64,000 nt of DNA, taken from contig NZ_FOVI01000013.1 of the NCBI RefSeq assembly GCF_900115115.1, forward strand, positions 1 to 64,000, given 5' to 3'. The notes below the pieces were generated by a model. That model saw only the letters and a list, made by a program, of their open reading frames with translations. It was not told where the DNA came from and did not search any database. Below are positions 35,947 to 54,614 of this stretch, one piece after another. The translations under genes and the position numbers were made by a program. This DNA is from Paenimyroides ummariense (GTDB taxonomy: Bacteria > Bacteroidota > Bacteroidia > Flavobacteriales > Flavobacteriaceae). Every line of letters starts with the position of its first letter. The first letter of the stretch is position 1.

Positions 35947-36010
35947 AGTATAGAAAAAAGTATGTCTAGTATAGTTTTTTATTGTTGAAGGTATATTTGA
36001 TGTTAATTTG
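35947..36010 (+). promoter_or_regulatory. LytTR-type direct-repeat promoter, site A (sensor kinase operon)
   Basis: Boxes AGTATAGA (35947-35954) and AGTATAGT (35968-35975) are 21 bp apart start to start. A -7-like TTAATTTG (36003-36010) follows after a 27-nt gap. A perfect TATATTTG also lies at 35992-35999. The kinase starts at 36038. Proposed autoregulatory site of the LytTR regulator. Confidence 0.7.
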
Positions 36011-36037
36011 TAAAATTAATTTAATGCTAAGATAGCA

Positions 36038-37123
36038 ATGAGGGAGAATTTTAATCTCATTTTCAAAGAGGAACAAATAAAGGAAGATTCATTATTGAGA
36101 CTTCTTATCGACAAGAAATTTAGATTGTTAAGGCATCTTATCAGCTTTTTATGCCTACTGTCTTTAATGCTTTCCGGAAAAAACTGGGGAGAATTTTATG
36201 GCATTTATGATCATTTAGATTGGATCTCAAGCGTGTTATTTATGTTGCTGGTTTTTTATGTAAATATGTATATTTTAATACCAACATTTTTATATAATTC
36301 AAAAGCATTGATCTATTTGCTGAATTTATTTTTAATAATTTTAGCAGGATCAATCATTCTACTTTTCTTTAAATCGTATGTTCTTGAAAACCACAGACTA
36401 ATTCAAAATCTGAATTTTAAAAATTCGATTCAGGAAATATTTTTGGTGACGTTTTTTCTGATACCAATTTTTTTATTTTCCAGCGGATTAAAATTATTTC
36501 AACATTGGATGTATGATACAGAAAAGTTTTATGAGTTGAAGAAAAAATCCATTGAAAGCGAACTGATTGCTTTGAGAAGTCAAATTCAACCTCATTTTCT
36601 GTTCAATATGCTAAATAACATAAACATTCTTACTAGAAAAGATCCTGAAAAAGCGTCATTTATTATAGTTAAACTCTCAGAATTTTTAAGATATCTTTTA
36701 TATGAAAATAGTGAAGAGAAAGTTACTATTGTTTCAGAAATTAAGTTCATACATAATTATCTTAGTCTGGAAAAAATGAGAAGAGATGATTTCGAATACG
36801 TGATTGATTCAGGGGAAGAAAATATAAAGCATTTAAATATACCGCCACATTTAATTTTAATATTAATAGAGAATGCAATCAAGCATAGTGCAGATACTAC
36901 AGATGAATCTTATGTAGATGTTGTTTTTACATTGGAGGCTGAATATTTGAAGATTCGTGTCACAAATTCGGTTCCTTTGTTGAGAATGGCTTCTGACAGT
37001 CAGCATGGAGTTGGGCTTACCAATCTACAAAGAAGACTTGAACTGATTTACAAAGATTCATTTACTTTGAATGCTAGTAGAAATAAAGACGAATATATAG
37101 CAATTTTAAAAATACCTGTATGA
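36038..37123 (+). CDS. LytS/YehU-type sensor histidine kinase
   Basis: 361 residues. Four hydrophobic segments (about 31-48, 61-85, 88-115 and 128-150) precede a short linker and the His_kinase domain (PF06580 type): LRSQIQPHFLFNMLNNIN with phospho-acceptor His186, then a LEKMRRDDFEY segment and an ATPase region with ILIENAIKHS and GVGLTNLQRRL. It overlaps the response-regulator gene by 4 bases. The membrane domain has little periplasmic loop, suggesting sensing within or near the membrane. A degraded paralogue lies at 53504-54529. Confidence 0.93.
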   Translation: MRENFNLIFKEEQIKEDSLLRLLIDKKFRLLRHLISFLCLLSLMLSGKNWGEFYGIYDHLDWISSVLFMLLVFYVNMYILIPTFLYNSKALIYLLNLFLIILAGSIILLFFKSYVLENHRLIQNLNFKNSIQEIFLVTFFLIPIFLFSSGLKLFQHWMYDTEKFYELKKKSIESELIALRSQIQPHFLFNMLNNINILTRKDPEKASFIIVKLSEFLRYLLYENSEEKVTIVSEIKFIHNYLSLEKMRRDDFEYVIDSGEENIKHLNIPPHLILILIENAIKHSADTTDESYVDVVFTLEAEYLKIRVTNSVPLLRMASDSQHGVGLTNLQRRLELIYKDSFTLNASRNKDEYIAILKIPV

Positions 37124-37821
37124 ACTGTATAGTTATAGATGATGAGCCAGTAGCAAGAATGGGGATGGAAGATTTGATTACCAACTCACCTCCTTTGGTT
37201 CTTTTAAAGTCATTTAGAAGTGCGATCGGTGTTGATGAGTTTTTAAAAAATCATCAGGTAGATATTGTTTTTCTAGATATTGAAATGCCAGATTTAAATG
37301 GGATTGAATTTGCAGAAAGTGTTCCCGGTAATGTATTGGTGATCTTCACCACAGCGTACTCACAGTATGCAATTGACAGTTATAATTTAGACGCCTTGGA
37401 TTATCTGGTTAAGCCTATATCACAAAAACGTTTTGATATTAGCATTTCCAAAGCGTCATCTTATCTGTCTTTAATGAAAAAAGAAAAGTATATTGTGGAA
37501 AATGCTATGGAGGATTATATAATTGTCCGTGCAGATAAACGTTTCCATAAGATTTATTTTGATGATATAATTTATATCGAAGCACTAAAGGATTATGTTA
37601 TAATTAATATAATTAAAGACGATCGCCATATCACTTGGATGAACTTAAAAAATATATACAGTAAGCTCCCTTCAAATAAGTTTTCCCGGATAAATAGAAG
37701 TTATATAGTGAATAATAAATATGTAACCTCATTTAACAACTTTAGTGTTTGGATAGATGATTTGGAAATAAATCTAGGTAAAAATTACCGGGAGGATTTT
37801 TTTAGAAATTATAATTTTTAA
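37120..37821 (+). CDS. LytTR-family response regulator
   Basis: 233 residues: receiver domain (1-118) with acidic pair Asp7/Asp8, phospho-acceptor Asp53 in FLDIEMP, Thr in FTTAYS and Lys in LVKPIS; C-terminal LytTR DNA-binding domain (about 130-230) with DDIIYIEALKDYVIINI and FSRINRSYIVN. LytTR proteins bind pairs of short direct repeats separated by about two helical turns, which fits the boxes found in this window. Translationally coupled to the kinase. Confidence 0.95.
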   Translation: MNCIVIDDEPVARMGMEDLITNSPPLVLLKSFRSAIGVDEFLKNHQVDIVFLDIEMPDLNGIEFAESVPGNVLVIFTTAYSQYAIDSYNLDALDYLVKPISQKRFDISISKASSYLSLMKKEKYIVENAMEDYIIVRADKRFHKIYFDDIIYIEALKDYVIINIIKDDRHITWMNLKNIYSKLPSNKFSRINRSYIVNNKYVTSFNNFSVWIDDLEINLGKNYREDFFRNYNF

Positions 37822-37865
37822 ATTTTTCCAGAAGAAAAATAATTAATCGGAAATGATCTTATTTT

Positions 37866-37929
37866 GGTATAGTAATATAAGGTGTTTGTATAGATTCTAA
37901 TTCTCACAATGTAAAGAGAGATATTTTTG
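37866..37929 (+). promoter_or_regulatory. LytTR-type direct-repeat promoter, site B (outer-membrane protein)
   Basis: Boxes GGTATAGT (37866-37873) and TGTATAGA (37887-37894), 21 bp apart, then a 27-nt gap and a perfect TATTTTTG -7 box (37922-37929). The ATG of the beta-barrel protein is at 37955. Confidence 0.75.
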
Positions 37930-37954
37930 ATAAAAATTTAACTCGTTTATAATT

Positions 37955-38524
37955 ATGAAAAAGATTCTATTGTTAACTGTATTTTTTATCGGATTAAGTA
38001 AAAGTTACGGTCAATTACATCTGGGAGTAAAAGCTGGAGCAAATCTTACAAAAATTGATGGTGAGGGTTTCAGCGATAAATTCGCTCTGGGATATCAGTT
38101 GGGAGGTTATACTTACTACGATTTCACTAAAGCATTAGGGTTACAGCTTGAGGTTCAATTCAACCAGACAAATACTAAAATTGAAGATAGGTATGTTGAT
38201 GTCTTGTTAAATACGTTTGACAAAAAGAAGAAGTTAAATTATGTATCTGTTCCACTATTATTACGTGTTAACAGTCAAGGATTTATCACGCTTCTTGGAG
38301 GTCCGCAGTTCAGTTTTTTGTCTAATAGTAATCAATCAATCCTGCAGAATAGTAAAAAACTCTTTAAGAAAACTGATTTGGGACTTGTCGCTGGTGTTGA
38401 GATTAATTTGAGACCTTTGAGAATTTACGGCAGGTATACTTGGGGTTTCAGTGATGTTAGTAACATAGGTGATTCACCAAACAGTAGACAAATTCAGGTT
38501 GGATTAGCTGCTAATTTATTTTAA
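37955..38524 (+). CDS. Outer-membrane beta-barrel protein (porin-like)
   Basis: 189 residues: signal peptide ending SYGQ, then repeated amphipathic strands beginning LHLGVKAGANLTKIDG, typical of the OMP_b-brl_2 family, and a terminal strand QIQVGLAANLF ending in Phe. Located in the outer membrane. The LytTR-type promoter immediately upstream makes it the closest likely target of the adjacent two-component system. Confidence 0.88.
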   Translation: MKKILLLTVFFIGLSKSYGQLHLGVKAGANLTKIDGEGFSDKFALGYQLGGYTYYDFTKALGLQLEVQFNQTNTKIEDRYVDVLLNTFDKKKKLNYVSVPLLLRVNSQGFITLLGGPQFSFLSNSNQSILQNSKKLFKKTDLGLVAGVEINLRPLRIYGRYTWGFSDVSNIGDSPNSRQIQVGLAANLF

Positions 38525-38561
38525 ATATTTTTTTTTCATTAATAATTGATCTTGATTTTTT

Positions 38562-38594
38562 ACTTCTTTCAGAATTTTTCTGAAAGAAGTTTTT
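38562..38594 (+). terminator. Intrinsic terminator after the beta-barrel gene
   Basis: Arms ACTTCTTTCAGAA and TTCTGAAAGAAGT with a short T-containing loop, then a T-run. Confidence 0.8.
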
Positions 38595-38931
38595 GATTAT
38601 ATACGACATTAATTAAAGGAGTATTTAAATTTGTTTTTTCTTCGATATTTGGAGTTGTCTTAGTAGTAGTATAGGTAAAATTAGTACTTAATTGGCTCGT
38701 AGTAATTTATTTATTGGCGAAATTCAGTATTAAAATCACAATTATTTCTCTCAAAGTTTCCTCGTCATTAATTACTAAAATGCTTAAAGATATTTACTTC
38801 GTAAAACGATACAGCAATCAATGAGATATTGATTAATTATGACTTTAACAGTAAAATACTATCTCTTCCTGATGGAAATCAGAATATATGTAGAAAGTTA
38901 AATTTGAGATTTACTTGCTTTGTAATATTAG
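38595..38931. other. Gene-poor spacer
   Basis: No convincing reading frame, hairpin or repeat. One isolated AGTATAGG (38668-38675) resembles a LytTR box but has no partner 21 bp away. Confidence 0.4.
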
Positions 38932-40324
38932 CTAAAAATCACGGATTATTTTATCTGCATTTTCAAAAGTGGTAGAACTTTCAAAATACTTATTTATGAT
39001 CAACTGAGTTAATTCTACGTTATTGAGTCCAGACTTCAGTGTAGAACATAAGAAATCGTAATTGGTATTTGTGTCGTTACTAACTATTAAGCCACAACCA
39101 CATTTTTTCTTCTCCAATTTCTTTTTCAATTGCTGTAAAAATTATAGGTGCATAATAATAAACATATAGTTTTCGGTCTAAATAGTCAGATTGTGACGTA
39201 ATCTTTGCAAATGGAATAATATGGGGTGGGAGAAATCCTTTAAATTTTACAACTTTTTACTGATACTGTTGTCGTACACTTTTTCTCCTATGTCATTTTT
39301 TGTGAGCTTAAGCGATAAGTATTCTGCAAAACCTTCGCTAATCATATCCCGAAGTTCCGAATTAAAGACTTTGTACTTTTCAAAATAGTAATGGCCTAGT
39401 TCATGAGCTATAAACGGACGGTACTAATTTTGTATTTTTTGGGTTAAACAAACTTTTAAGACCATTATCACCCCAACCAATACTGTATTGAGGGATAAGA
39501 TATATAAGCCAACCGTCTTTTGAGGTTGGTGTGGTACGGATAAATACCGTTGCCTGCTCAAAGGGAATGTTTAGTTTTGACTCGTAAAGTTTTTTAAAAT
39601 TGTTAACTAGACGACTGAATTCTTTGATTTAGTCTTTACTTAAATAGGGATTTAGTACGTAAGTACCGTTGTTTTCTGTCAAGGCATAATTATCTAGAAA
39701 AAGAGATAATTCTTGAGTTATATTGCTCTTAAAATTCTAAGACTTTTTATTTATAGGCAAATTACCATTAATGTAAAGTGTATTGCAATCGTCACAAACA
39801 AGGTCAATATCATACATCACCTTTTCAGAAGTTTTGTCTGCTTCTATATCATATAGAACAGGATATCAGGCAGATGAACACCATCGGTTCTCAATGAATT
39901 ATGGTTAAAAGCAATATTCCCTTTCCAATCTTTCCTACTGTAATTCTCAATAGTATCCTTAACAACAGGATATTTTCCAACATACTCAATCTGTACTGTG
40001 TTAGGTAAAAATTTTTCCGTTCTTGTATTATTGGTAAAAAAATAGGCATTTGTTTCACCAGTAGAAGTTATATCACTTAATGATTTACTGGGATAAATTA
40101 AAAAGTAGTTTGGCTCCATGCTTCTGAAGTGAAGGTGGTTCATTCCTGAATTAAGTCTTATGATGTAGTTTTAAATATCAGGGATGTTGCTTAAAGTAAG
40201 ATTGCAATCAAATGTTCCCTCTTTAACTGAAATATGTACTGTACCTGTAAGTAAAAGATTCTTTTGTTGAGCAAAAAAAATATTTGATAGCAAAAGTAGT
40301 TATGAAAAAAAATAGTCTTTCCAT
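38932..40324 (-). pseudogene. Decayed secreted zinc metallopeptidase (HExxH)
   Basis: Starts at ATG 40324 with signal-peptide sequence split over two frames (LLLLSNIFFAQQ). Multiple stops and frameshifts follow, but coherent pieces remain: NYFLIYPSKSLSDITSTGE, LVCDDCNTLYINGN, FKKLYESKLNIPFEQATVF and a zinc-binding segment RPFIAHELGHYYFEKY followed by MISEGFAEYLSLK. The HELGH plus downstream Glu layout fits a gluzincin (M1/M61-like) peptidase. At least four lesions. Confidence 0.8.
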
Positions 40325-40445
40325 TTAGATTTTTTTAATTTAAAATAGGTAATTTATTTATAGGTTAATCATTATTTTTACGTACGTAAACTAAATTATA
40401 CCTGCTTTTATGAAGAATAAACTGTTGATTATCCCATTCGATCAT

Positions 40446-40661
40446 TTATTTTAAGGTTCTCTTCTTATCACTTGAATTTTCGTAGTAGGACTCGGCAATT
40501 TTATAACCCGTCCAGTAAGCGATGTCACCTGGTATTTCCTTATGAATTTTAGAAGCATAAAAAAATATTTTATAAAATATCTTGTATAGTATTCGGCTTT
40601 TAATTTTTTCCAAAGAATCTTTTTTAATTAATTTACTGTATTTAAAATTATACTTTCTCAT
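40446..40661 (-). CDS. Short unknown protein, possibly a C-terminal remnant
   Basis: 71 residues; the segment IAYWTGYKIAESYYENSSD resembles LNYWLGYRIVSKYVEEYGED near the end of the peptidase at 43935. This suggests the C-terminal piece of a related decayed protease. It directly follows the gene ending at 40664. Confidence 0.4.
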   Translation of the reverse strand: MRKYNFKYSKLIKKDSLEKIKSRILYKIFYKIFFYASKIHKEIPGDIAYWTGYKIAESYYENSSDKKRTLK

Positions 40662-40663
40662 AA

Positions 40664-41107
40664 TTAAGACTTTTTATGAACAGACAGTACTTTCTCGTCT
40701 AAAAAAAATTTTATTTTTTTTCGTTTGAAAATCAAAAAATATAGGGATGCAATATTATTTTTAGAAGTAAAGTTATACTGCCAACTTATCCTGTGGCGGT
40801 TTTTGGACGTTTGGATAATGATGCGGTAATTTATACTAGAGCAATACCACCTAAAATGAAATGGCATTCCAGTTAAAATTCCATCTAATTTTGTAATATA
40901 CAAACCATCATCAATATCTGTTGACGTATTGTAAAAATGATTTATTTCACCGCCCTTATTAGCAGAAATTTTATATTTAAACGGTGTAAGTACGGTGATT
41001 ATGTCTTCAATCCATTGTTTCTGTATTTCGTGTAAAGTAGAATTTTCGAGTATTGAATGGTTCTCAAGTGGCATAAATGGAAATAGTAGTATGTTCCTTT
41101 TTTTCAT
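40664..41107 (-). CDS. Unknown protein
   Basis: 147 residues with a weak hydrophobic start (MKKRNILLFPFMPL) and a body with possible beta strands, ending in a Lys-rich tail. No family recognised. It may be a remnant, given the decayed neighbours and the fragment just downstream. Confidence 0.4.
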   Translation of the reverse strand: MKKRNILLFPFMPLENHSILENSTLHEIQKQWIEDIITVLTPFKYKISANKGGEINHFYNTSTDIDDGLYITKLDGILTGMPFHFRWYCSSINYRIIIQTSKNRHRISWQYNFTSKNNIASLYFLIFKRKKIKFFLDEKVLSVHKKS

Positions 41108-41437
41108 ATGGTATAATGTATAGCGTACAATTTTACGACAATCAATAACAGTATATGATTTAACTATACAAACTATTAGGTATTTTATACAATAGTAACT
41201 ATTTGCTCTACAAGAATGTCCAATCTTTCATCAAATTAAATTTTGTATTGGATTTTGTGGAGTGTAATACATTGTGCATTATTAATTTTATGCAGAGCTA
41301 TATTGAGTTTATAATAAAAAGCCAAAGTATGAAATAAACTTTGGCTTAATTGATCTTCTTTAACCAAAGCAATAAAGATCTATAGAGATATATGCACTAC
41401 ATAGTCCATATAGTATGTTGCAATAATACATGTTTAA

Positions 41438-42521
41438 CTAGCTATGTGATATTTTTTTATACCAAATGGATACAATTCTAGAGGAACTCTGTGAACTGTC
41501 TTGTTTGCTAGATACATCGTATAAATATCTTTCATTGTTATAATCTTCGAAATTATCTTTACTTACCCATATCGGTGACGCCGCAATGGGACTTTCATAT
41601 GTTTTACTGTCCATTATATATATAGGGAAGTAGGGGATATTAGCTTAAGTCACTTCCACCACCGTTGTTTTGAACATCTATGATTAGGTTTTTTACTGAT
41701 GTCAGGTTATCTTTGTGGTTTAGGATCAATGAATCTATAATCCTTTTTGTTTCAAAATCGAAAGTGTTAATTATGAAGTTATTAGTATTGCTGTCTAGCT
41801 TTACAAAGTAGGTTGAGTCGCGCAGATTATAAGCTTCACTTTTCTTGATTTTCGATTTACCACGGTAGAATGTGTTTGCTCTGCCTAACTTAAGAATATC
41901 TTTTTTTAAGACAACTTTAAACGTAGAGGACTTCTGAGCGAAGCTCCAGTAATTTGCGTAAAGTTCGCCTCCTGGATTTTTATAAAATGCGATTTTCAAA
42001 TCTCCTATCGAACCTAAAGCTGCCCGTTTTTCTATAGGTGTATTTGTAAGCAACCCTACAAACTGTCTTCCTTTTTTCTTGTTTTTCTATACATGAACAT
42101 CAAAAGCTCCGATACCATAATTACATGTTCTTTCAATTTCGTTTGTTTTAACGGGCTTTACAGTAAGTTTCTCGACATTTTCTGCTATAAATTTTGAAAC
42201 AGACAGTGTTTGGTTGAAGGTTTTAAAGGAATAGTAGCTGTCTGTTGTATAAATTTGTTGATGTACATCTCTTAAGAAAGAAAGATAAAACTGTAAAATT
42301 CCTAAACATTCTTTTTAAGTTCTGAGTTTTTTTGCAGCTTTTTTTACTTGATGCTTATGTTTTTGGTACTCTTTCATAAACCTGATGGGCAAAAGAAGCG
42401 GAGTTTTTTTCAATTTGCTCTGTCACATAGTTTATTTTTTCAGAGCAGTTACAACTTTTCTGGGAAAATACTGAAATGGAAGAGAGAGTAAAAAATAGAA
42501 TAGTGATAATTCGTATTTATA
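41438..42521 (-). pseudogene. Decayed S41-family peptidase (second type)
   Basis: Coherent pieces over several frames: a signal-peptide-like start leading to SCNCSEKINYVTEQIEKNSA, then SYYSFKTFNQTLSVSKFIAE, the long frame 41640-42053 ending NLIIDVQNNGGGSD, and after a frameshift YIMDSKTYESPIAA. NNGGGSD is the S41 core loop. The C-terminal catalytic Ser/Lys region is absent, so it is truncated as well as frameshifted. Confidence 0.75.
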
Positions 42522-42526
42522 GTTGT

Positions 42527-43879
42527 TTAAAAGTTTTTTAAAATATAATCTAGTGCTTTTGCAGATGGAACGTGGATATCTGGTCTTACACCATGGCGGT
42601 CTCCTTCATTGGTTCCTACATCATAGTCCATTGAAGTAGATATGTTGAGGATCAGTTTTGAGTTTGGCAGTTTAATCTGTATGCTTTCTCCTCCAGATAC
42701 TACGAAACCGCCCGACTCTTCACCTACCAGAATCCCTGTGCGGTAATACTTAAGTGCATTAGCGAAATCGGCTGCAGAGGAAAACGTTTGCCCGCTTATA
42801 AGGACTATTACACTTCCCTTAAACTTTTGATCTTCTCCTTTTGTATTTATCAAATTGGACGATTTAATTTCTGTTCCAATTTTTCCTGATGTGTTACTCA
42901 AAATTTTTTGCGTATATTCTAAGTCTGTGTAGCTGCTGTTTTTTAAAAACTGTTTCTGTGTTTCACTGTATTTTGTTACTGTCTTATTATATTGCGTAAA
43001 CGGTTGTGATACCAAGTAGCTTAGTAGTTCATCTCCAAGTTCTGAGTTTCCGCCTCCATTTTCCCGTATATCTATTATAAGGTTTGTTATATTTTCTTGT
43101 TTTAACCTATCAAACATTTCAAGTAAAAATGTTTTAAAAAACTCTAAATCTGAAAAACTTCTAATAGTAAGTAGCGCATAGTTTTTATCTTTTACTATGC
43201 AGTAACTAAAATTTTCAATTTTATTATTTTTTTGAGATGTATTTTTTAATTGTGATCGCTTTAATATATTAATATCTACATTAGTCTCGTCTTCAAATAC
43301 TATCTTTAAGGTGTCTTTTTTTTCGATGAAAAGATTGTAGTAGTCGTTGAAGTAATATTGGCTTAAGGCGATACTACTTTTATTTGTTTCGGCACTTGTG
43401 TAGCTTCCAAAAAGTTTTATGATTTTATGTACATTTATTCCGTCTATTCGCACTATTTTTTTTCCAATAACATTATCTGGAACAAAATTCTGGTAACCGT
43501 CTTTTATTGACTTTATAAACAGTGAGTTATTTTGAATCCCTACTGTAAAAGGAAAGATGAGGTAGTCTGTTTCAGAAATGCGGTCCGCTATGTTAAGTTC
43601 TGTATGACCATCCCTTAATTTAGCGATAATTGGTTGAAAAGCAAGATAAAAATCAAAGGGACTAATTATATCTTTCTTTAAAATTCTTCTATGAGCACGG
43701 TTGATGAGGCGTACAAATTTTTTTTTTGAAATTTGGCTGTAAGGACTTACGCTTGCGTCTTCGATGGTGTATTTAATATAATCAACATCTTCATCTACTT
43801 CGTCTTTTGAAATAAGTTTTACAGTTTGGCTATAAATATTTAGCGTAAAAAGTATCGGAAGGTATAGTAATATCTTCAT
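42527..43879 (-). CDS. Secreted S41-family peptidase
   Basis: 450 residues: signal peptide ending IYSQ, N-terminal helical region, a PDZ-like middle (VIGKKIVRIDGINVHKIIKLFG), and the S41 catalytic domain with LIIDIRENGGGNSELGDEL, then VLISGQTFSSAADFANALKYY carrying the candidate nucleophile Ser, and EESGGFVVSGGESIQIKLP. It is the intact paralogue of the pseudogene at 19487-20863. Likely degrades or processes envelope proteins. Confidence 0.9.
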   Translation of the reverse strand: MKILLYLPILFTLNIYSQTVKLISKDEVDEDVDYIKYTIEDASVSPYSQISKKKFVRLINRAHRRILKKDIISPFDFYLAFQPIIAKLRDGHTELNIADRISETDYLIFPFTVGIQNNSLFIKSIKDGYQNFVPDNVIGKKIVRIDGINVHKIIKLFGSYTSAETNKSSIALSQYYFNDYYNLFIEKKDTLKIVFEDETNVDINILKRSQLKNTSQKNNKIENFSYCIVKDKNYALLTIRSFSDLEFFKTFLLEMFDRLKQENITNLIIDIRENGGGNSELGDELLSYLVSQPFTQYNKTVTKYSETQKQFLKNSSYTDLEYTQKILSNTSGKIGTEIKSSNLINTKGEDQKFKGSVIVLISGQTFSSAADFANALKYYRTGILVGEESGGFVVSGGESIQIKLPNSKLILNISTSMDYDVGTNEGDRHGVRPDIHVPSAKALDYILKNF

Positions 43880-43934
43880 TGGATGTGTTCTTATATTTTA
43901 TACTTATAAAGAGCTGTTCAAATTACGAGATTTT

Positions 43935-44948
43935 CTAAAGATTGTTTATATATTGTTCGTACTTACTTTTTTCAAAAACTTCTTTAGCGGTCAGTTCGTA
44001 AATGTCTTTCCATGAGTCTTCACCATACTCCTCTACATATTTGCTAACAATTCTGTATCCTAACCAGTAATTTAAAGTTTTCGGAGCTTTTGGAAATAGT
44101 TTGAATTTTTCATTTCTGAGGAGGGGATTGTTGCCGGAATTATCTGAAAAGTAAATTTTGCTTTTCAGAAAGATTTCTTTTTCATTCTCTATAAACCAAC
44201 TCCATTCCTCTCTAGTCATATTTTCAACTGCCTCATATTCTGTTATTTTTTTATCAAAAAATATGTATGTGAAATAGCAGGCAAATCCTTCGTCAATTGT
44301 TTGGCTTAGTGCAGAATGACGTTCGCTATCATTATTTCGAAACTGTTCATATACGAAATGATTAAGTTCATGTGCAAATCCTTTTTCTAACGTATAACGC
44401 AGATCCAGAGATTCATTATTAATTTCAAACGCAAATTCCATAGAACTGCATCCTCCAAACCCAATTCCGGTAATCGGAGTAAATAACATACTTACCTTTG
44501 CTGTAGGCTTATACGGAACAAGTCTGTTGAACTTTTCTAAATTTGATCTCAGCAGATGGTTTATATTAATGCTTGTAATTTCTTTTGTGTGGTCGACGAA
44601 TTGTTGCTTATTCTCTTTAAAAAGAATTTTATTCCATTTTATCATTCCGTTTTTATTATTGAACAGATAACTGTTTTCTTCGCCAAATATTGAGCCGTAG
44701 CAGTTATCCCATAAGCTTTTATGGGGGAGATATACCTTGCTTTGAATCATTAAGGAATCAAATTTAGATTTTTTATGGGCAAGAATCTGGTATTTAAAAA
44801 GATTGTGTACAGTAATATTATCTACCACAATGCTGTCCGATATTTTTTCAATTTGCTTGTAGTTGAAATCTGACTGTACAATTTTTTTAAGTTTGCAAGA
44901 ACTCGCAATTGCACAAAATGTAAAAAGCAATAAATATTTTGAATTCAT
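43935..44948 (-). CDS. Lipoprotein Zn-dependent peptidase (DUF2268-like)
   Basis: 337 residues with lipobox ending ASSC (Cys18). The zinc motif HELNH (GFAHELNHFVYEQF, about residues 191-204) is followed about 20 residues on by TIDEGFACYFTYIF, giving the third Glu ligand, as in DUF2268/gluzincin-type predicted proteases. A C-terminal helical region includes TLNYWLGYRIVSKYVEEYG. It sits just upstream of the S41 peptidase gene on the same strand. Confidence 0.8.
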   Translation of the reverse strand: MNSKYLLLFTFCAIASSCKLKKIVQSDFNYKQIEKISDSIVVDNITVHNLFKYQILAHKKSKFDSLMIQSKVYLPHKSLWDNCYGSIFGEENSYLFNNKNGMIKWNKILFKENKQQFVDHTKEITSININHLLRSNLEKFNRLVPYKPTAKVSMLFTPITGIGFGGCSSMEFAFEINNESLDLRYTLEKGFAHELNHFVYEQFRNNDSERHSALSQTIDEGFACYFTYIFFDKKITEYEAVENMTREEWSWFIENEKEIFLKSKIYFSDNSGNNPLLRNEKFKLFPKAPKTLNYWLGYRIVSKYVEEYGEDSWKDIYELTAKEVFEKSKYEQYINNL

Positions 44949-45869: not shown

Positions 45870-45954
45870 GGTATGGTAATATGTTGTATTGGTATAATTT
45901 AAGGTGTTGTTGGTATAGTAAATAAAACATTGTTTTATAAATATAGTAATATTG
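45870..45954 (+). promoter_or_regulatory. LytTR-type direct-repeat promoter, site C (three boxes)
   Basis: Boxes GGTATGGT (45870-45877), GGTATAAT (45891-45898) and GGTATAGT (45912-45919), each exactly 21 bp from the previous. A 27-nt gap then leads to TAATATTG (45947-45954), one base from TAnnTTTG. The gene starts at 46042. It is the only site with three boxes. Confidence 0.75.
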
Positions 45955-46041
45955 TATCAGTACTTTATATATAGTGAAATGTAAGGTAGTATTAAGGGTT
46001 TAACATAACCATTGTTTAAGAGATTATTGTGTGAATATTAT

Positions 46042-47553
46042 ATGAAAATAAATAAATCTATGAAAATTATAATTTCTGTAGCTGTTTTATTTGCAGCTGC
46101 TTTCTTTGGGGGCAAGTATGCACTGAAAAATACGGGAGTGGTATGGAATATTATGTGGAAGAAGTACCAGTCAGAACTTAGAAAAGAAGAGTCTTATCTT
46201 TTAGTTAAATCAGAATTTAACAGTAACACTGCCATTTTCGATGGAACATTTAACAATTGGAATGATGCTAATATCAATACACATCGTGTAATATATCTGT
46301 CACAAACCGAAAATGGTAAGATTTCAAATGAAGACCTAAACAAAAGGTTGTCAGGTACAGAAAAAATTAAAATAGAAGGAAATTTAAAAACGGATGATGG
46401 AAAAGCGGGTATTTCTAAAGCAGTCGTATATTACGGAAAACATAATTATGAAGTAGTGTTTACGGATCTCCCGTTTTACAACAGTCCAACTGACGCGCTT
46501 TACGAAACAGGAGGTATACTTACTGTAGACCTGACCGTTACAGGAAACAAAATTCTGAAACAAAATTTACTGTCTACCGGAAAAATAATAATTGGCAAAG
46601 AGGCTGTTTTGGAAGTTCAGGATGGAACAACACTGGTAACGGCTCATACCGAGGTTAATGGTACATTAAAAGGTTTTGTAACCGGATATGTATTTATGAA
46701 AGATAATAGCGTGTTCAACGGCAGTCTATTACTAGGGCGTATGAGCGTTTCGGGAAATTCTACCATGATAGGAATGTTTATCGGGGAACAACTTAAAGTA
46801 GATGATAATTCCGAATTATTAATGAAAGAGTTTGGAGGGCTGTTTACTTCTGCAGATCTAGGTAAGAACGTAACACTAAAGTTTCATGATGGAGAGCCAT
46901 TGTTTTTAGGTGTTAATGCAAATGAATGGACAGTGGATGAAGGTGAAAGTACAAGTACAGGACCAAATCTGGCGGGTGAAAACACTACAGGTAACTCGTG
47001 GTATATATCTTACACAAAGACGCCAACCGACATGCTTGGAAGAAAATGGGCAGGTAGCTTGAATGGGAAGGGGGCATTAAGAGCTGGAATTGATGGTCTG
47101 GGGTATGTGAAGAATGAACCGGATCTGAAACTAGAACTTGTAGGTGGCACAGAACATAATTTTGCACTTATGATTATGAACAAGTATCCGATAGTAAATG
47201 TGAAGGGAAATGTGGAAGCATATGTAAATGAAGGAATTGCTTGCCCACCAAATGATGCTCAGGTTATCAAATTATCTAAATTGATCAAAAGAGATGCAAA
47301 AATAAAGACTTTTGATGTGGATTTTAGCTTAAGTGCGCCAAACTATGAATTTCTTTCATCTGAAAAAATTGCAGTACATAAGGTTATGATGCCGTTATTG
47401 AAAAAAGCAGCAAAAGAAGTTTCTGATTTTTCTTGGAAAAGCGCAAAAACGGAAGCTGGTTATGTGTTTTACGGTTATACGGGTGATCAGACCAATCATT
47501 GGACTGGTCCTACAGGCGGAGAAGAATGCATTGTCTATGTAAATAAGAAATAA
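46042..47553 (+). CDS. Unknown membrane-anchored beta-rich protein
   Basis: About 503 residues from ATG 46042; an in-frame TTG at 46012 is less likely. One N-terminal hydrophobic anchor (about 5-22, ISVAVLFAAAFFGG) is followed by a long extracytoplasmic part. Residues about 165-290 show short strand repeats rich in Gly, Asn and Val (VNGTLKGFVTGYVFMKDNS, FNGSLLLGRMSVSGNS), like a beta-helix or bactofilin-type repeat. The C-terminal part is mixed and ends near EECIVYVNKK. No family recognised. Three LytTR-type boxes upstream. Confidence 0.8.
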   Translation: MKINKSMKIIISVAVLFAAAFFGGKYALKNTGVVWNIMWKKYQSELRKEESYLLVKSEFNSNTAIFDGTFNNWNDANINTHRVIYLSQTENGKISNEDLNKRLSGTEKIKIEGNLKTDDGKAGISKAVVYYGKHNYEVVFTDLPFYNSPTDALYETGGILTVDLTVTGNKILKQNLLSTGKIIIGKEAVLEVQDGTTLVTAHTEVNGTLKGFVTGYVFMKDNSVFNGSLLLGRMSVSGNSTMIGMFIGEQLKVDDNSELLMKEFGGLFTSADLGKNVTLKFHDGEPLFLGVNANEWTVDEGESTSTGPNLAGENTTGNSWYISYTKTPTDMLGRKWAGSLNGKGALRAGIDGLGYVKNEPDLKLELVGGTEHNFALMIMNKYPIVNVKGNVEAYVNEGIACPPNDAQVIKLSKLIKRDAKIKTFDVDFSLSAPNYEFLSSEKIAVHKVMMPLLKKAAKEVSDFSWKSAKTEAGYVFYGYTGDQTNHWTGPTGGEECIVYVNKK

Positions 47554-47633
47554 TGATCACATAAAAACATAATTAGAATATTGTGATAAACAGAATAAAA
47601 GAGTAATAAATAGTGTGAAATTGTTTGATTGTT

Positions 47634-47665
47634 AGGTTGGAGTTTTTTAGCTCCAGCCTTTTTTG
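47634..47665 (+). terminator. Intrinsic terminator
   Basis: Arms AGGTTGGAG and CTCCAGCCT (one G-T pair) with a T-rich loop and a T-run after. It lies 80 bases after the beta-rich protein gene. Confidence 0.75.
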
Positions 47666-47851
47666 TTTTCTTAAAATGTAGTACTCATAGAGACTACTAT
47701 GTTTTTTTATTTCAGGTTTTTTTGACCAGTAATACCGAATATTGGGTAAGTAATAATGAACCGTGGAGGGTAGCTTTGAGTAATAGTCGGTACACATTAC
47801 TTTACGAACTAATTTCTAACTAGAGATTTTACTAATTTAAAACGATTAATA

Positions 47852-48232: not shown

Positions 48233-48886
48233 CGATAAAAGCTTCATCTTTGTTTAAGCTCCACAAGGGAGTGGAAACCGAATGAAAGTAGGAAGTTAGC
48301 CTATTATTTTCTGAGTACGGTAACTGCAAAAGAAAGTCAAAAGTGAAGCTTATTCCCGAAATTACGGTATCTTTTTCTAAGTGCACAATTTTACGAACCG
48401 ATCCAGGGCTGCTCAATAAAATATCATTTTTTCAACAGTTATATTTTTCTTGATTTATTGACTTCTGAAGCTCGCCTTTATCTATACATAGTAAATAGAA
48501 ATAGCTTGTGTTAAAATTATCCTTGTACTTTTAATTAGCAACGGCTTCTACACCTGTCATCATCGTAAATCCTTCAACATCCGTATACCCTCTACTATGT
48601 ACATGCCTTCTTAATTCTGATATCAATTCTACCTTTAAATCGTTTGATGAGAATGTTCTGTTCATAAATATTTATTTTCATTAATCCGGTAAACTTCGGT
48701 ACTGTAGGAATGTGACTACGGCACTACTCAGATTAATTTCATTTTTTTCTAGAGAATCATCTAGGTAGCATAAGATTTTTTTATAACAGAATTTTAAAAC
48801 AAAACCAGAAACAGCCCTTTTCGAGAATTTCTGGTTTGTCAGTAAAATTACAATTATAATTATAACATCTTTAGTCCATTGATGTA
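48233..48886. other. Remnant-bearing spacer
   Basis: Contains a minus-strand stretch (up to 48416) reading KDTVISGISFTFDFLLQLPY that looks like part of a secreted protein but lacks a proper start or end, the small frame at 48531-48665, and otherwise nothing assignable. Confidence 0.35.
48531..48665 (-). CDS. Very small unknown ORF
   Basis: ATG 48665 to TAA 48531 encodes 44 residues (MNRTFSSNDLKVELISELRR and on), charged N-terminal helix, ending EAVAN. Coding-like composition but no recognised family; may be a genuine small protein or a remnant. Confidence 0.35.
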   Translation of the reverse strand: MNRTFSSNDLKVELISELRRHVHSRGYTDVEGFTMMTGVEAVAN

Positions 48887-49657
48887 TTATTCCCGATAGC
48901 CTGCACCTCCGTTAATAGACCACACCTGACCGGTTATCCATTCTGCTTCATCCGATAGTAAAAATGCAATAGTATTTGCAAGGTCTTCTGGCTTGCCTAA
49001 TCTGTTAAGCGGTGTTCCTGCTAAAATCTGTGCCTGAAAATCTTCAGATAGTTTTGATAGTCCGGTTTCAGTCAGCACAGCACCAGGGCTTACGCAGTTA
49101 CATCTCACATCATCTTTACCGTATGTTGATGCTATGTGTCTTGTAAGGGTATTAACACCTGCCTTTGAAGCAGCATATGCCGGACGAACTTTTTCTCCAA
49201 TATGAAATGCTGCACTTGTTGTATTTACGATATATCCTCCACCAGCATTTTTAAGATGTGGTAAACCATACTTTATTACCAGCGCGTATCCGATTAGGTT
49301 TGTATTAAGTGTTTTTTCCCATATCGGCAACTGCATTTCCAGAACTTCAATGTCATTTCCTGCCGTAGCATCCGATACGTCTGCACCTATGTTTGCGATG
49401 CCGTCTAATCCTCCAAGTTTTTCAATTGTAAAATCAATCAACGAACGGATGCTGGTTTCGTCAGCAAGATCGAACTTGAATGCATAAGCTTTACCACCAT
49501 TATCCTCAATAGATCTGACAACAGATTCTGCACCCTCTATGTTTATATCTCCAATTACAACAGCTACACCTTCTGATGCTAATCTCTTGGCTGTCGCAGC
49601 TCCAATACCTGTTGCCCCTCCGGCAATAAGAATTCTCTTATCTTTTAAACCTCTCAT
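48887..49657 (-). CDS. SDR-family NAD(P)-dependent oxidoreductase
   Basis: 256 residues, classical SDR: nucleotide-binding GGATGIG at 13-19, the NAG-like position is NIGAD (89-93), catalytic Ser148, and YAASK at 161-165. C-terminal LLSDEAEWITGQVWSINGGAG is typical. The Asn-Ala-Gly motif is replaced by Asn-Ile-Gly, a mild deviation. Substrate unknown. It faces the MscS gene divergently across about 500 bases. Confidence 0.93.
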   Translation of the reverse strand: MRGLKDKRILIAGGATGIGAATAKRLASEGVAVVIGDINIEGAESVVRSIEDNGGKAYAFKFDLADETSIRSLIDFTIEKLGGLDGIANIGADVSDATAGNDIEVLEMQLPIWEKTLNTNLIGYALVIKYGLPHLKNAGGGYIVNTTSAAFHIGEKVRPAYAASKAGVNTLTRHIASTYGKDDVRCNCVSPGAVLTETGLSKLSEDFQAQILAGTPLNRLGKPEDLANTIAFLLSDEAEWITGQVWSINGGAGYRE

Positions 49658-49901
49658 ATTATATAAATTTTGTTTAGAATTAAACCTAAGTTACATACTT
49701 TAAACATGAATTAAATACAAATCTATACGAAGCTGTTGTTGTGCTATACCAATACACGATGTTTTCCGATAAAATTTTTGTCTTAATAGAAATTGCTGGA
49801 ATTATTAAAGTTACTTATTGTCTGCTTGCTTGCTGTCTGAAAAATCAGCTAAATTATATACCATTGATGAAGAAGTATCAATCAAACTACAGGGAAATGT
49901 T

Positions 49902-49965
49902 GGTATAGTAAAAAGAACCGTTAGTATAGTTTTTAATTCCGGCTATCTTATATATTTTAATTTAG
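49902..49965 (+). promoter_or_regulatory. LytTR-type direct-repeat promoter, site D (mechanosensitive channel)
   Basis: Boxes GGTATAGT (49902-49909) and AGTATAGT (49923-49930), 21 bp apart, then a 27-nt gap and TAATTTAG (49958-49965), one base from TAnnTTTG. The downstream gene starts at 50153, leaving an unusually long leader of about 180 nt. Confidence 0.7.
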
Positions 49966-50152
49966 CTGGTTGCTTTTAATGTCGTTTTGAGGATTAAAAA
50001 GCTTTCTGAAGTTAGGGCATATTTTAGGTAAAAATAAAACGGATATTTTAACGCTTAATCGAACAAATGAAGTTTTTTGAAGACCAGACTAAAATGTTGT
50101 AAAATCCTAATCAATATTATAAAATAATTATCAATTTTAAATTCAGTTATAT

Positions 50153-52489
50153 ATGAAATTTAATAAAAGAAGCATCATTAAATTTCTACTTTTACTTGGA
50201 GTAACATATTTACAGTTAAGTATGTGTGCATCTGCCCAAGTAAAAGGTAAGAAGCCTTCTCATAACGTAAGCCTTTTTTCCCAACGCGATACTACCGATG
50301 TCAAGAACAAAGATTATGTAGAACATATAGAAAAGGCATTTCTTGAAATAAGTGAAATACAGGAAAAAATTTCAGTACCCGTTAATCGGCAGAATGCTAT
50401 TAATATACTGAAGACTGAGGAGTTGATAAACATCATCAATGCTTCCATAAAATTGCACTCTCAAATTAATGCAAGAGACCTTCAGTTATACCTTAAATTA
50501 TTAAACAATTCCGAACGGGAACAGAACAGACTTAAGACTGACAATTTTAAACTTGACACCATCTTCAAATCCGCTCGTAAATCATTGTACGATATTTCCG
50601 CCGATCCTGTTCTTGCAGAAATTGCTAGTGTTATGAGTATTCAAGATAGGGAAAAACTTAATTCTTTAAGTGGAAGGTGGGCTTCTTTAGACAGTATTAT
50701 AGCCGAGAGAATATCTCTTATTGATCAGCAGGGGATACAGCTGTCTACCATAAATATACAGCTTAAAGACTTGCAAAAACAAACAAGGGATCTCTTGTTT
50801 GAGAGCAATATTGCAACATTTAAAAAAACAAATGCAAAACCTAATAACTCAAGTGGCAGTGGTGGAGTGATTACACAGTCACAAATAAATGCCAAAATTG
50901 TTGGTATGTACATGCAGGATAACTTATTTCTTTTCGTGTTTTTACCAATATTATTGGTTTCAATCGTATACTATTGGACTAACCGTAAAGTTAGGTTCGT
51001 GAAAGATAAGGTTACTGACACTTATTTGTCTTCGGTTTTCAGCGAAGGCATATTTATGCGTCCCTTTACTCATATTACGTTTATGGTGCTAAATTTAGTG
51101 CCTCTGTTAGATCTTAACACTCCATCTTTTTACCAATTCTTAATACAGTCATTGTCAGTATTTATGTTTGTAAAAATGCTTGACAAACAAGAAAGAAAAA
51201 AATATGGGAAGTTTTATCTTGGTTTTTTTGCGTTGTACATTGTGATATTATTTCTTAACGCACAAAATTTTACTGTTGTTCATAAGGTTGTTCTTACAAT
51301 TGTTAGTATCTCCACGGCAGTAATTGCAGTTATACTGATGTCCAAGGGTATAATAAAAAATAACGTGCAGAAGACATATGGAATAATTTCATTATTGATT
51401 ATATTAACAACTTTACTCTCTCTGTTCTGTCTTTTCACTAATCGTGTCTTGGTGAGTTATAATTTAATTTATGCTTCTATTGTCTGTGTATTGCAATTAA
51501 TTTGTTTATTTAAAGTTAAAGATATTATATTGGATCTTTTGAAATTGCAAATGTTGCAAAGGAGGTTAAAGCTCGCAATTGATAATACTGTTAATACATC
51601 CAATATGGTCTCTAATCTTTCAAAACCACTAAATATATCTGTGTACATTTTTTGCTCTATAAGTTTTATAAGTAATTTGAATCTGTATGTTGCGCTGGAA
51701 TCTCTAATAGATGCCATAATGGATCTTCCTATTAATATCGGCAGTATCCACATCACTGCAGGGAGTATTATTTATTTTATTATCATCGTATTTATAGCTC
51801 ATTTTATCAGAAAACACATCGGGTATGTGTTCGGGAATGTGGGTATTGAAGAGGAAGACGAAAAGTTTGAACAGTCAAGTTTAGTTATTACAAGACTGCT
51901 TATAATATGTTTGGGCTATATTATAGCAGTGGCTGCTTCCGGGCTGCCTGTTGACAAAATAACAGTGGTTCTTGGTGCGCTTAGTGTTGGTGTAGGTATG
52001 GGATTCCAAAACATCGTTAATAATTTCGTGTCGGGACTTATCTTACTCTTTGAACGACCTTTAAAGATTGGGGATAATGTGCAGATCAACGGAAAATCGG
52101 GGAGGGTGAAGGAGATGGGTGTAAGAACAAGTACACTGCAAACCGATGAAGGTGCCGAAGTAATTATTCCAAATGGGACAATTCTCTCTCAGGATATTAT
52201 AAACTGGTCTTATAAAAACAATAAACGTAGAGTTGAACTTTCATATTCTATAAAAAGTTCTAAAAATGCTGTTCAACTCGAAGCATTTATTGTCAATTGT
52301 TTAGTCCAAATTGAAGATGTACTGTCTTTCCCAAAACCGACAGTGTTATTTGATACTGTTTCGGAAGAAGATTTTAAGATTAGAATACAGTTTTGGTTTA
52401 AAGATTCTGGCAATTTCGAAAAAGTGATGAGTAATACTAAAAGCTTTCTTTATACCGAACTAAAACAGAATGAGATGTTCGTTCAATAA
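50153..52489 (+). CDS. MscS-family mechanosensitive ion channel (large, MscK-like)
   Basis: 778 residues: signal peptide (ending CASAQ), a long periplasmic helical domain (about 35-260), multiple transmembrane helices (about 265-590), and the MscS core with VLGALSVGVGMGFQNIVNNF (TM3, about 606-625), FERPLKIGDNVQI and VIIPNGTILSQDIINWS. The C-terminal vestibule domain is present. It releases solutes on hypo-osmotic shock. Its promoter carries LytTR-type boxes. Confidence 0.93.
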   Translation: MKFNKRSIIKFLLLLGVTYLQLSMCASAQVKGKKPSHNVSLFSQRDTTDVKNKDYVEHIEKAFLEISEIQEKISVPVNRQNAINILKTEELINIINASIKLHSQINARDLQLYLKLLNNSEREQNRLKTDNFKLDTIFKSARKSLYDISADPVLAEIASVMSIQDREKLNSLSGRWASLDSIIAERISLIDQQGIQLSTINIQLKDLQKQTRDLLFESNIATFKKTNAKPNNSSGSGGVITQSQINAKIVGMYMQDNLFLFVFLPILLVSIVYYWTNRKVRFVKDKVTDTYLSSVFSEGIFMRPFTHITFMVLNLVPLLDLNTPSFYQFLIQSLSVFMFVKMLDKQERKKYGKFYLGFFALYIVILFLNAQNFTVVHKVVLTIVSISTAVIAVILMSKGIIKNNVQKTYGIISLLIILTTLLSLFCLFTNRVLVSYNLIYASIVCVLQLICLFKVKDIILDLLKLQMLQRRLKLAIDNTVNTSNMVSNLSKPLNISVYIFCSISFISNLNLYVALESLIDAIMDLPINIGSIHITAGSIIYFIIIVFIAHFIRKHIGYVFGNVGIEEEDEKFEQSSLVITRLLIICLGYIIAVAASGLPVDKITVVLGALSVGVGMGFQNIVNNFVSGLILLFERPLKIGDNVQINGKSGRVKEMGVRTSTLQTDEGAEVIIPNGTILSQDIINWSYKNNKRRVELSYSIKSSKNAVQLEAFIVNCLVQIEDVLSFPKPTVLFDTVSEEDFKIRIQFWFKDSGNFEKVMSNTKSFLYTELKQNEMFVQ

Positions 52490-52613
52490 TTCTAGTGAAA
52501 CCTCGTATCGTTAAAATTGCGTAGTTAATACTAAAAATTAAATGTTTTGACAATTGGAAGGTGTTGTAATTTGATTTGTACTTTGTTTCTAACATGCTCA
52601 TTTAGCTTTCCGA

Positions 52614-53155
52614 TCAGATCTGTTGCCGGAAAAATCTTTGTTTGCTGTGATACATACCTAAACTGTCATAGTAAATCGTAATAAAATCAAACGGTAACAT
52701 ATTGTCTTTGTAGGCACTTGTTACTCGGCCGTTATGATAATTAATATGGTCTAACATTATGTTGTTCTTCCACGTTTCTTTTCTAATCAGAGTTCCTTGA
52801 ACGTCATAGAAAAAGAGAAGTTAGTGAGTTAATATAAAATGGCTAAAATCGTTGATTGCTATTTTGAATACTTTACCATTTATATATAAATTCGTCTAAA
52901 TGACTAAGGTCAATAACCTCACCTGCTTCCGGCATCTTACCTGTAATGTTTTTAGTAAGCTGTTGGTGATTGCTGTCGTAAGTAAATTCAGCTGTTGCGA
53001 AATTTGTTGAATCGTAGTATCTGGAAACAGTCTCCACGAGAAAATCTTCAAATACGCATTGTGAGTTGCATTTATACTGTAAAAAATTTAATAAAAACGG
53101 TTATTGCTACTAGACGTAAACTTTTTAATGCAGATAAATTAGTATAAGTTATCAT
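52614..53155 (-). pseudogene. Decayed secreted protein
   Basis: ATG 53155 opens a hydrophobic signal-like segment, then frameshifts into KCNSQCVFEDFLVETVSRYY, followed by SNHQQLTKNITGKMPEAGEV, LIRKETWKNNIMLDHINYHNG and FITIYYDSLGMYHSKQRFF, with at least two more breaks. Unknown family. Confidence 0.6.
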
Positions 53156-53503
53156 AATCTTTGTTTCTTTTTGGATTAGTGGAGTTCTCCATTTGTTGTG
53201 TTAATTTTTCATAAATGTATGAAAATACTGTTTTTAATGAGTTTCTTTTTATAAGATAATTCCACCATCTTATTTTGCTATGCAAAATACTTGAAACAAT
53301 ATATGAGCGTTGTTCTCACACAGTATAGATGTCTGGTTAGCAATATCAAATTATATTGTAACAATTGATATTTTTTTGCCTATACATTTCTAGTTTTATA
53401 TTGACTAAAGATTTTCTTTTACAGAGATTAATTTCCTACTGTGACAGAGTCTATAAGGGAATAGTTAAATCAACAATATACTCTTGCGAGTTACTGGTGA
53501 TTT
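53156..53503. other. Gene-poor spacer
   Basis: Nothing I can assign. One isolated AGTATAGA (53322-53329) has no partner box 21 bp away. A short frame at 53365-53589 overlaps the decayed kinase antisense and is not supported. Confidence 0.4.
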
Positions 53504-54529
53504 TTAACTGCGTCTTTTTATGTTCGCTAAACCCAAACCATTGCTTTTGTTTTTTGAATGATGTTGGTTTTTTTCGGTTTTTGAATTGATACACACAAAA
53601 TGCAGCTACGTGTCTTTAATATCGATACTTATCTTCAAAAATGTTTGATCACCATTAGGGGCTATACTATGCCTTACGGTATTTTGTTTAAAAACGGTAA
53701 ACAAACCGGGCGAAATAAAAGTATAATTCAAAGTGTTTTTAGCGATATAATTTTCAATTTCAATCTTAAAACTATCTTTTCGGATTTTTTCTAGATTTAA
53801 AAAGTTCGAAATAAATTAAATTTCTGATGCTAAAGTATTTTTCTCGCCACTGTTTTCGTACAACTGATATCTTAAAAATTCTGACAGACGAATGATCACG
53901 GAATTTGCCATTTCTGGATTTGTTCGAATCAATGCTTTAACATTATTCAACATATTAAACAGAAAATGCTGACATACCTAAATTAACTCGTTTAAATTCC
54001 ATCTCAAACGTTATGTTGTTTAGTTCGGTAATACGCTCATTATCTTTAAGCCAGCGCTGCAATAATTTTATGGGTGTTGAAAGCGAAATTAAAGATGCAC
54101 AAACAACTATCACTCCGTAAAAATCAGATCTTATATTAATTTCCTTATGCATTAATGGGTGTGCCTCGGCGTAATCTTGATGTAAATGCAGATTGAAATA
54201 GTTTTCATGATAAAAAATTAAAATCTGAACACCTGAAACAGCCATCAAAATTAAAAAAACCGCTTATCCTAAATATTTAGATCTAAACAAAAACAAGGCA
54301 CCAGCACATGCATATTTACATAAAACATAAGTACAAAAATTATGTAAACGGTTGCTGCAGCGTAATATCCGTAAGGAGTTCCGAACGATTCTACAAAACT
54401 TCCCCCATAAAGCATCAATAAAAAACCGTTGGAACAGCACCTGACGTTTAATACGGTAACATTTTTGTATAAAAAAAGCCAGTACTTTATTATCGTTGGT
54501 ATTCTGGCATTCTGGCATTCTGGAATCAT
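53504..54529 (-). pseudogene. Degraded LytS-type sensor histidine kinase
   Basis: From ATG 54529, pieces in shifted frames match the intact kinase at 36038: MLYGGSFVESFG and VLMFYVNMHVLVPCF (membrane part), HFLFNMLNNVKALIR, RLSEFLRYQLYENSGEKN and LEKIRKDSFKIEIENY (dimerisation domain), and VRHSIAPNGDQTFLKIS with NGLGLANIKRRS (ATPase domain). Several stops and frameshifts. No response-regulator gene adjoins it. Confidence 0.87.
54500..54523. repeat. Triplicated 8-bp repeat in decayed kinase
   Basis: Three consecutive copies of ATTCTGGC (last one ending in A) within the first codons of the degraded kinase. An 8-bp unit shifts the frame when copy number changes. Confidence 0.7.
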
Positions 54530-54550
54530 TTATACGAACAAAATTAAGTG

Positions 54551-54614
54551 TAAACTTAAGGTTTGAACTATTACCAACTTCTTATATTATACAAACTTCC
54601 CAATTTACTATATA
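54551..54614 (-). promoter_or_regulatory. LytTR-type direct-repeat promoter, site E (degraded kinase)
   Basis: On the minus strand: TATATAGT (54614-54607) and TGTATAAT (54593-54586), 21 bp apart, then a 27-nt gap and TAAGTTTA (54558-54551), one base from TAnnTTTG. The decayed kinase starts at 54529. Confidence 0.65.

Follow-up and report, generated by a model that had tools for sequence, protein, structure and literature searches.

LytTR-type DNA-binding domains recognise short direct repeats: their operators are described as two repeats of 9-11 nucleotides (nt) with spacers of 11-13 nt, and for YpdB the bound element is a directly repeated 10-bp motif (PMC4847170). Operators of this kind, about two turns apart and upstream of the promoter, are already known together with autoregulation, and autoregulation through direct repeats has been described for the LRS group, direct repeats occurring in Bacteroides LRS-like operons as well (PMC6193735). 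Here we describe a locus of Paenimyroides ummariense in which a LytS-type kinase and a LytTR regulator lie among promoters that share such repeats. The stretch analysed, hereafter the window, comprises bases 1-64000 of contig 54 in a genome of 3,492,418 bp and 75 contigs. The kinase matches PF06580 and the regulator PF00072 and PF04397, all above the gathering scores (Table 1), and the two genes overlap by 4 bp; as a PF06580 kinase beside a regulator with receiver and PF04397 domains, they form a LytS/LytTR two-component system. An earlier note on this DNA, made from the letters alone, had placed such an intact pair next to two of the promoters and had pointed out that LytTR regulators are known to bind short direct repeats about two turns apart.

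We propose an autoregulated LytS/LytTR circuit working on Bacteroidota-type promoters, in which the boxes would be operators of the adjacent regulator, activating its own operon and a set of local genes; we give this reading a probability of about 0.85. The earlier note described five promoters (A-E) with one layout, and in each of them the box starts lie exactly 21 bp apart and the -7 box exactly 27 nt past the last 8-bp box, the match to TAnnTTTG being six of six bases at B and five of six at A, C, D and E. All five are present as described, but the list was incomplete, three further sites (F, G and H) having been overlooked. Weak matrix matches at 54636 (+), 45430 (+) and 41484 (-) were not accepted as sites.

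The concentration of the pattern in the window is evident from genome-wide scans. The exact repeat GTATAG-N15-GTATAG occurs four times in the genome, every time inside the 64-kb window (A, B, D and F; reversed control, two matches). The strict pattern, GTATAR-N15-GTATAR-N28-TAnnTTTG, was run with up to one or two mismatches and with the reversed pattern as control. At one mismatch it yields six matches, five of them window sites (A, B, C, D and H) and the sixth in front of a paralogous LytS gene on contig 49. At two mismatches it yields ten: G and E join the list, as do two matches on contig 45, which appear to be background (reversed control, four). The binomial probability of finding five of six matches in the window by chance is about 1e-8, and that of four of four about 1e-7. 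Strict matches thus exceed chance, where the earlier note had named chance frequency across the genome as grounds for giving up the pattern. Across eight genomes, the strict pattern with at most one mismatch gave 18 matches, none of them farther than about 12 kb from a regulator homologue; the homologue beside a second Chryseobacterium soldanellicola cluster, at 376 kb, came to light only after that stretch had been fetched. A profile search of eight genomes also put sites at the top, with 150 of 3,406-15,617 candidates scored per genome, and it missed site H; it was not used for counts.

The same distances stand out around regulator homologues in other genomes. In 39 loci (740 kb, window excluded; 40 loci when the window is added), exact GTATAR pairs number 62 at 21 bp and eight at 42 bp, as triple boxes would give, with 0-3 at each other distance from 8 to 60. 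When up to one mismatch is allowed, there are 99 pairs at 21 bp, and in 63 of these a TAnnTTTG match of five or six bases follows exactly 27 nt on, a perfect one in 34; two of the 63 come from a C. soldanellicola locus (L262) that had been fetched for its pattern matches. At other gaps such a -7 box follows five times (26 nt), three times (28 nt) or 0-4 times (remaining distances up to 69 nt).

Counts of the flanking columns lengthen the box. The 80 accepted sites divide into 71 at gap 27, five at gap 26 and four at gap 28, and columns were counted over the 71 gap-27 sites, including those of the window; as the sites had been selected by GTATAR and TAnnTTTG, only the flanking TT and A are independent columns. 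The two T ahead of nGTATA are kept in 70, 69, 67 and 71 of the 71 sites, and an A is favoured after each box (65/71 and 56/71). Since the flanking TT and A are conserved without having been selected for, the putative operator word is TTnGTATAr followed by A, and the RGTATAGT of the earlier note gives way to this longer form. Spacer sequences differ between sites, while boxes and distances are kept. The putative operators are accordingly of the LytTR kind, paired direct repeats of 8-11 bp about two helical turns apart, with a period of exactly 21 bp.

The longer pattern, TTnGTATAG-N12-TTnGTATAG-N28-TAnnTTTG, was searched in 395 genomes of the order with up to two mismatches allowed; the reversed pattern served as control, and a regulator homologue was defined by E 1e-50 or better, with seven candidates scored per genome. 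It occurs at 32 places in 27 genomes (reversed pattern, three places), and it is present in 24 of 30 genomes with a regulator homologue vs 3 of 365 without one (Fisher p about 1e-29, a value inflated by relatedness). Leaving aside the window's own genome, 23 of 29 regulator genomes carry it, and by comparison of coordinates none of the 24 places in these genomes is more than 2 kb away from the regulator gene. A site stands before LytS in 34 of 40 loci, window included, under a rule of gap 26-28 and at most two mismatches in total; the LytS genes in this count were recognised by length and a text rule rather than by profile, and the text rule alone gave 33, having missed the C. soldanellicola site of locus L035. 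In that locus, sites precede LytS, an orthologue of the gene behind B (64% identical), a barrel-like gene (TTAATTCG, -7 box 4/6), a hydrolase, and a tannase-family gene followed by an MscS orthologue (53% identical), the last two presumably forming one operon. The layout is thus kept around regulator homologues and upstream of orthologous targets in C. soldanellicola, the comparison with relatives' promoters that the earlier note had proposed. Because the pattern tracks the regulator, sits before LytS and is kept at the orthologous barrel and MscS genes, the adjacent LytS/LytTR pair very probably uses the boxes as its operators, and the assignment of sites to regulator that the note had offered gains support accordingly.

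That the boxes are chance matches in AT-rich DNA, or a functionless repeat family, is a reading for which the base composition of the window (G+C content 0.33) and the commonness of loose patterns might speak, but it is contradicted by exact matches confined to the window in 3.49 Mb, by the peaks at 21 and 27 in other genomes, by spacers that vary while boxes and distances stay, and by co-occurrence with the regulator, and we consider it scarcely tenable.

Several observations weigh against the proposed circuit. Site F has a gap of 28 nt, not 27. Two RGTATAGT boxes alone, with at most three mismatches, give 119 matches vs 239 for the reversed control, an absence of enrichment which means that single degenerate matches carry no meaning; and since the strict pattern at two mismatches gives 45 matches in the eight genomes vs 34 for its control, nearly equal numbers, the weight of the argument falls on the strict matches only. 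The site before LytS is missing from six of the 40 loci: in L036, L148 and L242 good boxes are found on the LytS side with a weak or displaced -7 box, in L233 and L259 the layout is absent, and the sixth is L037. Six of the 30 regulator genomes lack the longer pattern; four (G018, G089, G165 and G230) have sites by a looser rule, and two (G198 and G412) have a site by neither rule. The genomes and loci are related to each other, and their counts overstate independence. Finally, the genome holds 16 matches to the regulator, and a paralogue on contig 49, 47% identical, uses nearly the same box, so that the match of site to regulator is ambiguous.

This paralogous system accounts for site E. Together with the kinase remnant behind it, E is 83.5% identical in DNA over 1227 bp to the promoter and kinase on contig 49, whereas the E region resembles the DNA of the window's own system over no more than 197 bp, at 69%. 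Judged by this similarity, E belongs, as its promoter, to a decayed copy of the contig-49 system, and its layout would be inherited from there. A chance resemblance between E and the window system was accordingly rejected, and E does not stand as the independent regulon member it had been taken for. As E is closer to the contig-49 system, seven sites (A, B, C, D, F, G and H) are left for the window regulator.

The paralogues may also be told apart by their boxes. In the regulator tree, which has 17 open forks and long branches, including the window's own, the window and L035 regulators form one clade (99/93). In all 12 accepted sites of these two loci, E included though it belongs to the other lineage, at least one box has G as its base 6, and in seven both boxes do. 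At the other loci base 6 is A, except that L261 has G, plus C in a weak second site, that one box of L238 has T, and that the weak sites of L257 include one box with G and one with C. The window and L035 regulators carry R169 in the LytTR domain, where 36 of 37 others have K (L261, whose placement in the tree is unsure, left out), R169 recurring in L261 and in L233, which has no site; they share W173, where 35 of the 37 others have A, and further Y180, S189, N218 and two C-terminal N, together with three residues outside the domain. In the HMMER alignment R169 and W173 correspond to AgrA R178 and Y183, which flank E181 (AgrA numbered from FFRCHNS 196-202), a residue near the DNA whose alanine mutant binds DNA poorly (PMC4227749). 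Base 6 and residues of the DNA-binding domain thus appear to differ together, a correlation that consists of one clade plus one uncertain case.

On the direction of change we can offer a tentative reading, to which we give a little less than even odds: after duplication, the lineage of the window and C. soldanellicola may have switched from GTATAA to GTATAG along with substitutions in the domain, K169R and A173W among them, insulating itself from the paralogue and gathering a local regulon of seven promoters. Most of the relatives' loci that were fetched show two sites. If the reading is true, an orthogonal circuit would have arisen here by natural evolution, and the genome would still hold both copies as well as what is left of another, decayed one. 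According to the opposing reading, the main reader of the window sites is the contig-49 paralogue, or both regulators share them. The identity of the paralogue, the layout of its own promoter and the G at base 6 of the first box of E, a site derived from that system, could be cited for it; however, the window sites have GTATAG in at least one box where the paralogue's promoter and nearly all other relatives have GTATAA, GTATAG is common only to the C. soldanellicola sister regulator, the long-branch L261 and one weak L257 site, and of the six strict sites, five lie in a cluster about the window regulator. We hold this opposing reading to be improbable.

How could the adjacent regulator act on these promoters? 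The sigma-A promoter of Bacteroidota has a TTG element at -33. Within the 71 sites, TTG occurs 17-19 nt before the -7 box in 13, ten of these at 17 nt, and the 27-nt gap contains no strongly conserved column save an A/T preference next to the box; the promoters carry the TAnnTTTG element of the Bacteroidota type and lack a consistent -33 TTG. Most -7 boxes lie about 10-40 nt before the first suitable ATG. The -7 consensus and its position, -12 to -5, come from the transcript map of Flavobacterium psychrophilum (PMC9723704), and arithmetic from that position, rather than from a mapped start, puts the 8-bp boxes at about -68 to -61 and -47 to -40. Under the proposed circuit, the LytS kinase would phosphorylate the LytTR regulator, two molecules of which would occupy the two boxes along one face of the helix; the boxes would make up for the lack of a -33 element and bring in the sigma-A polymerase. 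The regulator would in this way activate its own operon, a positive feedback, and raise the local genes behind B, C, D, F, G and H, which encode the barrel, a 503-aa protein, the MscS channel, a dehydrogenase, a broken barrel-like protein and a 147-aa protein. By analogy with the family (PMC4847170, PMC11347149, PMC6193735) we infer binding, phosphorylation, a signal and, probably, activation rather than repression.

The same operators might instead serve a repressor, the boxes blocking the polymerase until a signal releases it. LytTR repressors do exist, CoxC binding three direct repeats that overlap the -35 box (PMC11347149), and the second box ends at about -40, beside the -33 region. Yet the sites lie upstream of that region, the -33 element is not consistently present, as would be expected of activator-dependent promoters, and LytTR regulators mostly act as activators that bind upstream of -35 (PMC11347149); repression therefore seems unlikely to us.

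Table 1. Positions of sites, genes and related repeats. Positions are those of the window unless a locus is named; E values are from domain profiles.
Feature	Position	Strand	Details
Site A	35947..36010	+	boxes 35947-35954 and 35968-35975, -7 box TTAATTTG 36003-36010; putative promoter of LytS-LytTR operon
Site B	37866..37929	+	TATTTTTG; putative promoter of outer-membrane beta-barrel gene 37955-38524
Site C	45870..45954	+	three boxes, 45870, 45891, 45912; -7 box TAATATTG 45947-45954
Site D	49902..49965	+	TAATTTAG; upstream of MscS-type channel gene
Site E	54551..54614	-	putative promoter of LytS remnant; homologous to contig-49 LytS promoter; excluded from targets of window regulator
Site F	49686..49750	-	boxes GGTATAGC and CGTATAGA, 21 bp apart, 28-nt gap, TAACTTAG
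Site G	35750..35813	-	boxes TGTATAGA and CATATAGA, 27 nt, TTTCTTTG
Site H	41128..41191	-	TGTATAAA and TGTATAGT, 27 nt, TAAAATTG
LytS-type sensor histidine kinase, 361 aa	36038..37123	+	PF06580 E 1.5e-24
Response regulator, receiver and LytTR DNA-binding domains, 233 aa	37120..37821	+	PF00072 E 4.5e-16; PF04397 E 6.9e-14
Outer-membrane beta-barrel protein (OMP_b-brl)	37955..38524	+	presumed target of B
Gene behind C, 503 aa from ATG	46042..47553	+	first listed start TTG at 46012
MscS-type mechanosensitive channel, 778 aa	50153..52489	+	presumed target of D
Short-chain dehydrogenase	48887..49657	-	presumed target of F
N-terminal part of gene behind G	35441..35683	-	resembles barrel-like gene having such a site in L035 and L238
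IS21 helper ATPase IstB	34474..35208	-	adjoins broken gene of site G
147-aa protein	40664..41107	-	presumed target of H
Broken LytS kinase remnant, in pieces	53454..54529	-	behind E
AGTGTAGACGAATGG-type repeats	L066 3812-3848
AGTGTAGACGAATGG-type repeats	L070 4454-4492
AGTGTAGACGAATGG-type repeats	L078 4458-4496
AGTGTAGACGAATGG-type repeats	L081 3809-3844
AGTGTAGACGAATGG-type repeats	L088 4462-4493
AGTGTAGACGAATGG-type repeats	L105 5772-5806
AGTGTAGACGAATGG-type repeats	L114 6889-6924

The genes behind the sites (Table 1) give some indication of what the circuit might serve. The 503-aa protein behind C and the 147-aa protein behind H have no Pfam or NCBIfam match. The gene behind G was recognised by tblastn with its L238 and L035 relatives (E 1e-9 and 5e-4), and the remainder of the barrel-like relative has no significant tblastn match in the window; because the similarity stops beside an IS21-type element, the gene was probably broken by that element, the helper gene and the apparent insertion lying at 34474-35683. 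A 14-base exact search found no terminal inverted repeats of the insertion. Between H and C, at 42527-44948, lie S41 peptidase and DUF2268/GldB-like genes, surrounded by shorter open reading frames of broken appearance. The second site of a locus in other genomes is directed towards genes for TonB-dependent-receptor-like, TolC-like, barrel-like or small unknown proteins. One example of each type was run against Pfam, and the barrel-like proteins of 339-348 aa, which had no match there, were so called by eye. For the envelope or osmotic-stress regulon suggested in the earlier note, an envelope theme is plausible from the barrel and MscS genes and, in relatives, from the TonB-receptor-like and TolC-type genes; osmotic sensing is a guess.

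Two observations concern further loci of the group. Many genomes of one family encode, divergently from LytS and under a like site, a conserved protein of 142-149 aa (L232 8428), a type for which the L232 representative has no Pfam match. The C. soldanellicola locus L262 (G060 C4:366300-386200) is a second LytS/LytTR locus of the group with a divergent pair of sites, one of which faces a gene resembling the TonB-receptor-like gene of L258.

Farther from the window regulator the picture becomes patchy. A de novo scan for repeats and -7 boxes around 80 LytTR homologues (57-30% identity) was dominated by coding repeats and by long repeats counted several times; period 21 stood out in it, and gap 27 did not stand alone. 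We also applied a matrix built from the window's sites to 31 of the 80 loci. Upstream of the regulator it detected sites in L035-L038 and possibly one in L054; L039 and L040, with 48% and 46% identity, had none, and nothing convincing turned up in the remaining 24 loci. Several further genomes with regulators 42-46% identical do have sites. Near other LytTR genes of Flavobacteriaceae (about 35% identity) we observed a second class of intergenic repeats with a 21-bp period, of the AGTGTAGACGAATGG type, which possibly represent another family of LytTR operators; over 76 loci and both strands, period 21 gave 80 matches vs 3-30 at other periods.

The closest described counterparts of the window system are BtsR and YpdB of Escherichia coli, which likewise combine a LytS kinase with a LytTR response regulator. 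The BtsR operator has an 8-N13-8 layout. The window system differs from both in its box, TTnGTATAr, in the Bacteroidota -7 box TAnnTTTG and in its presumed targets; the motif letters of BtsR and YpdB are absent from the available part of a paper comparing the two (PMC5552118). Identification of the regulator with BtsR itself was rejected (95.9 bits vs an NCBIfam cut-off of 246), as was a LytR equivalog (93.8 bits vs 375). The AgrA regulator of Staphylococcus aureus belongs to the same family of DNA-binding domains, its 3bs1 sequence being matched by the LytTR profile with E 4.5e-6; its box differs from TTnGTATAr and its promoter type differs from that of the window system. A single-protein PDB search with the regulator returned, among the matches listed (60 of 96), almost only receiver-domain ones. 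In the LRS group (HdrRM, BrsRM) a membrane inhibitor is paired with the LytTR regulator, and Bacteroides LRS-like operons have 11-bp repeats that lie 11 bp apart and 11 bp upstream of the promoter (PMC6193735), whereas the window regulator has a receiver domain and a PF06580 kinase as its partner, a period of 21 instead of 22 and several further target promoters.

In the open-licence literature, judged by titles and the starts of abstracts of the papers listed, we found no description of the TTnGTATAr box, of the 27-nt rule to a Bacteroidota -7 box or of this gene set. Compared with the systems above, the locus provides an operator word, a spacing rule and a promoter geometry for a LytS/LytTR group of Bacteroidota present in 30 of 395 sampled genomes of the order, and its signature of 21 bp plus 27 nt allows the targets of such regulators to be predicted by sequence alone. 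The pair of paralogues with differing boxes would, moreover, make a clean system for asking how LytTR domains change their specificity.

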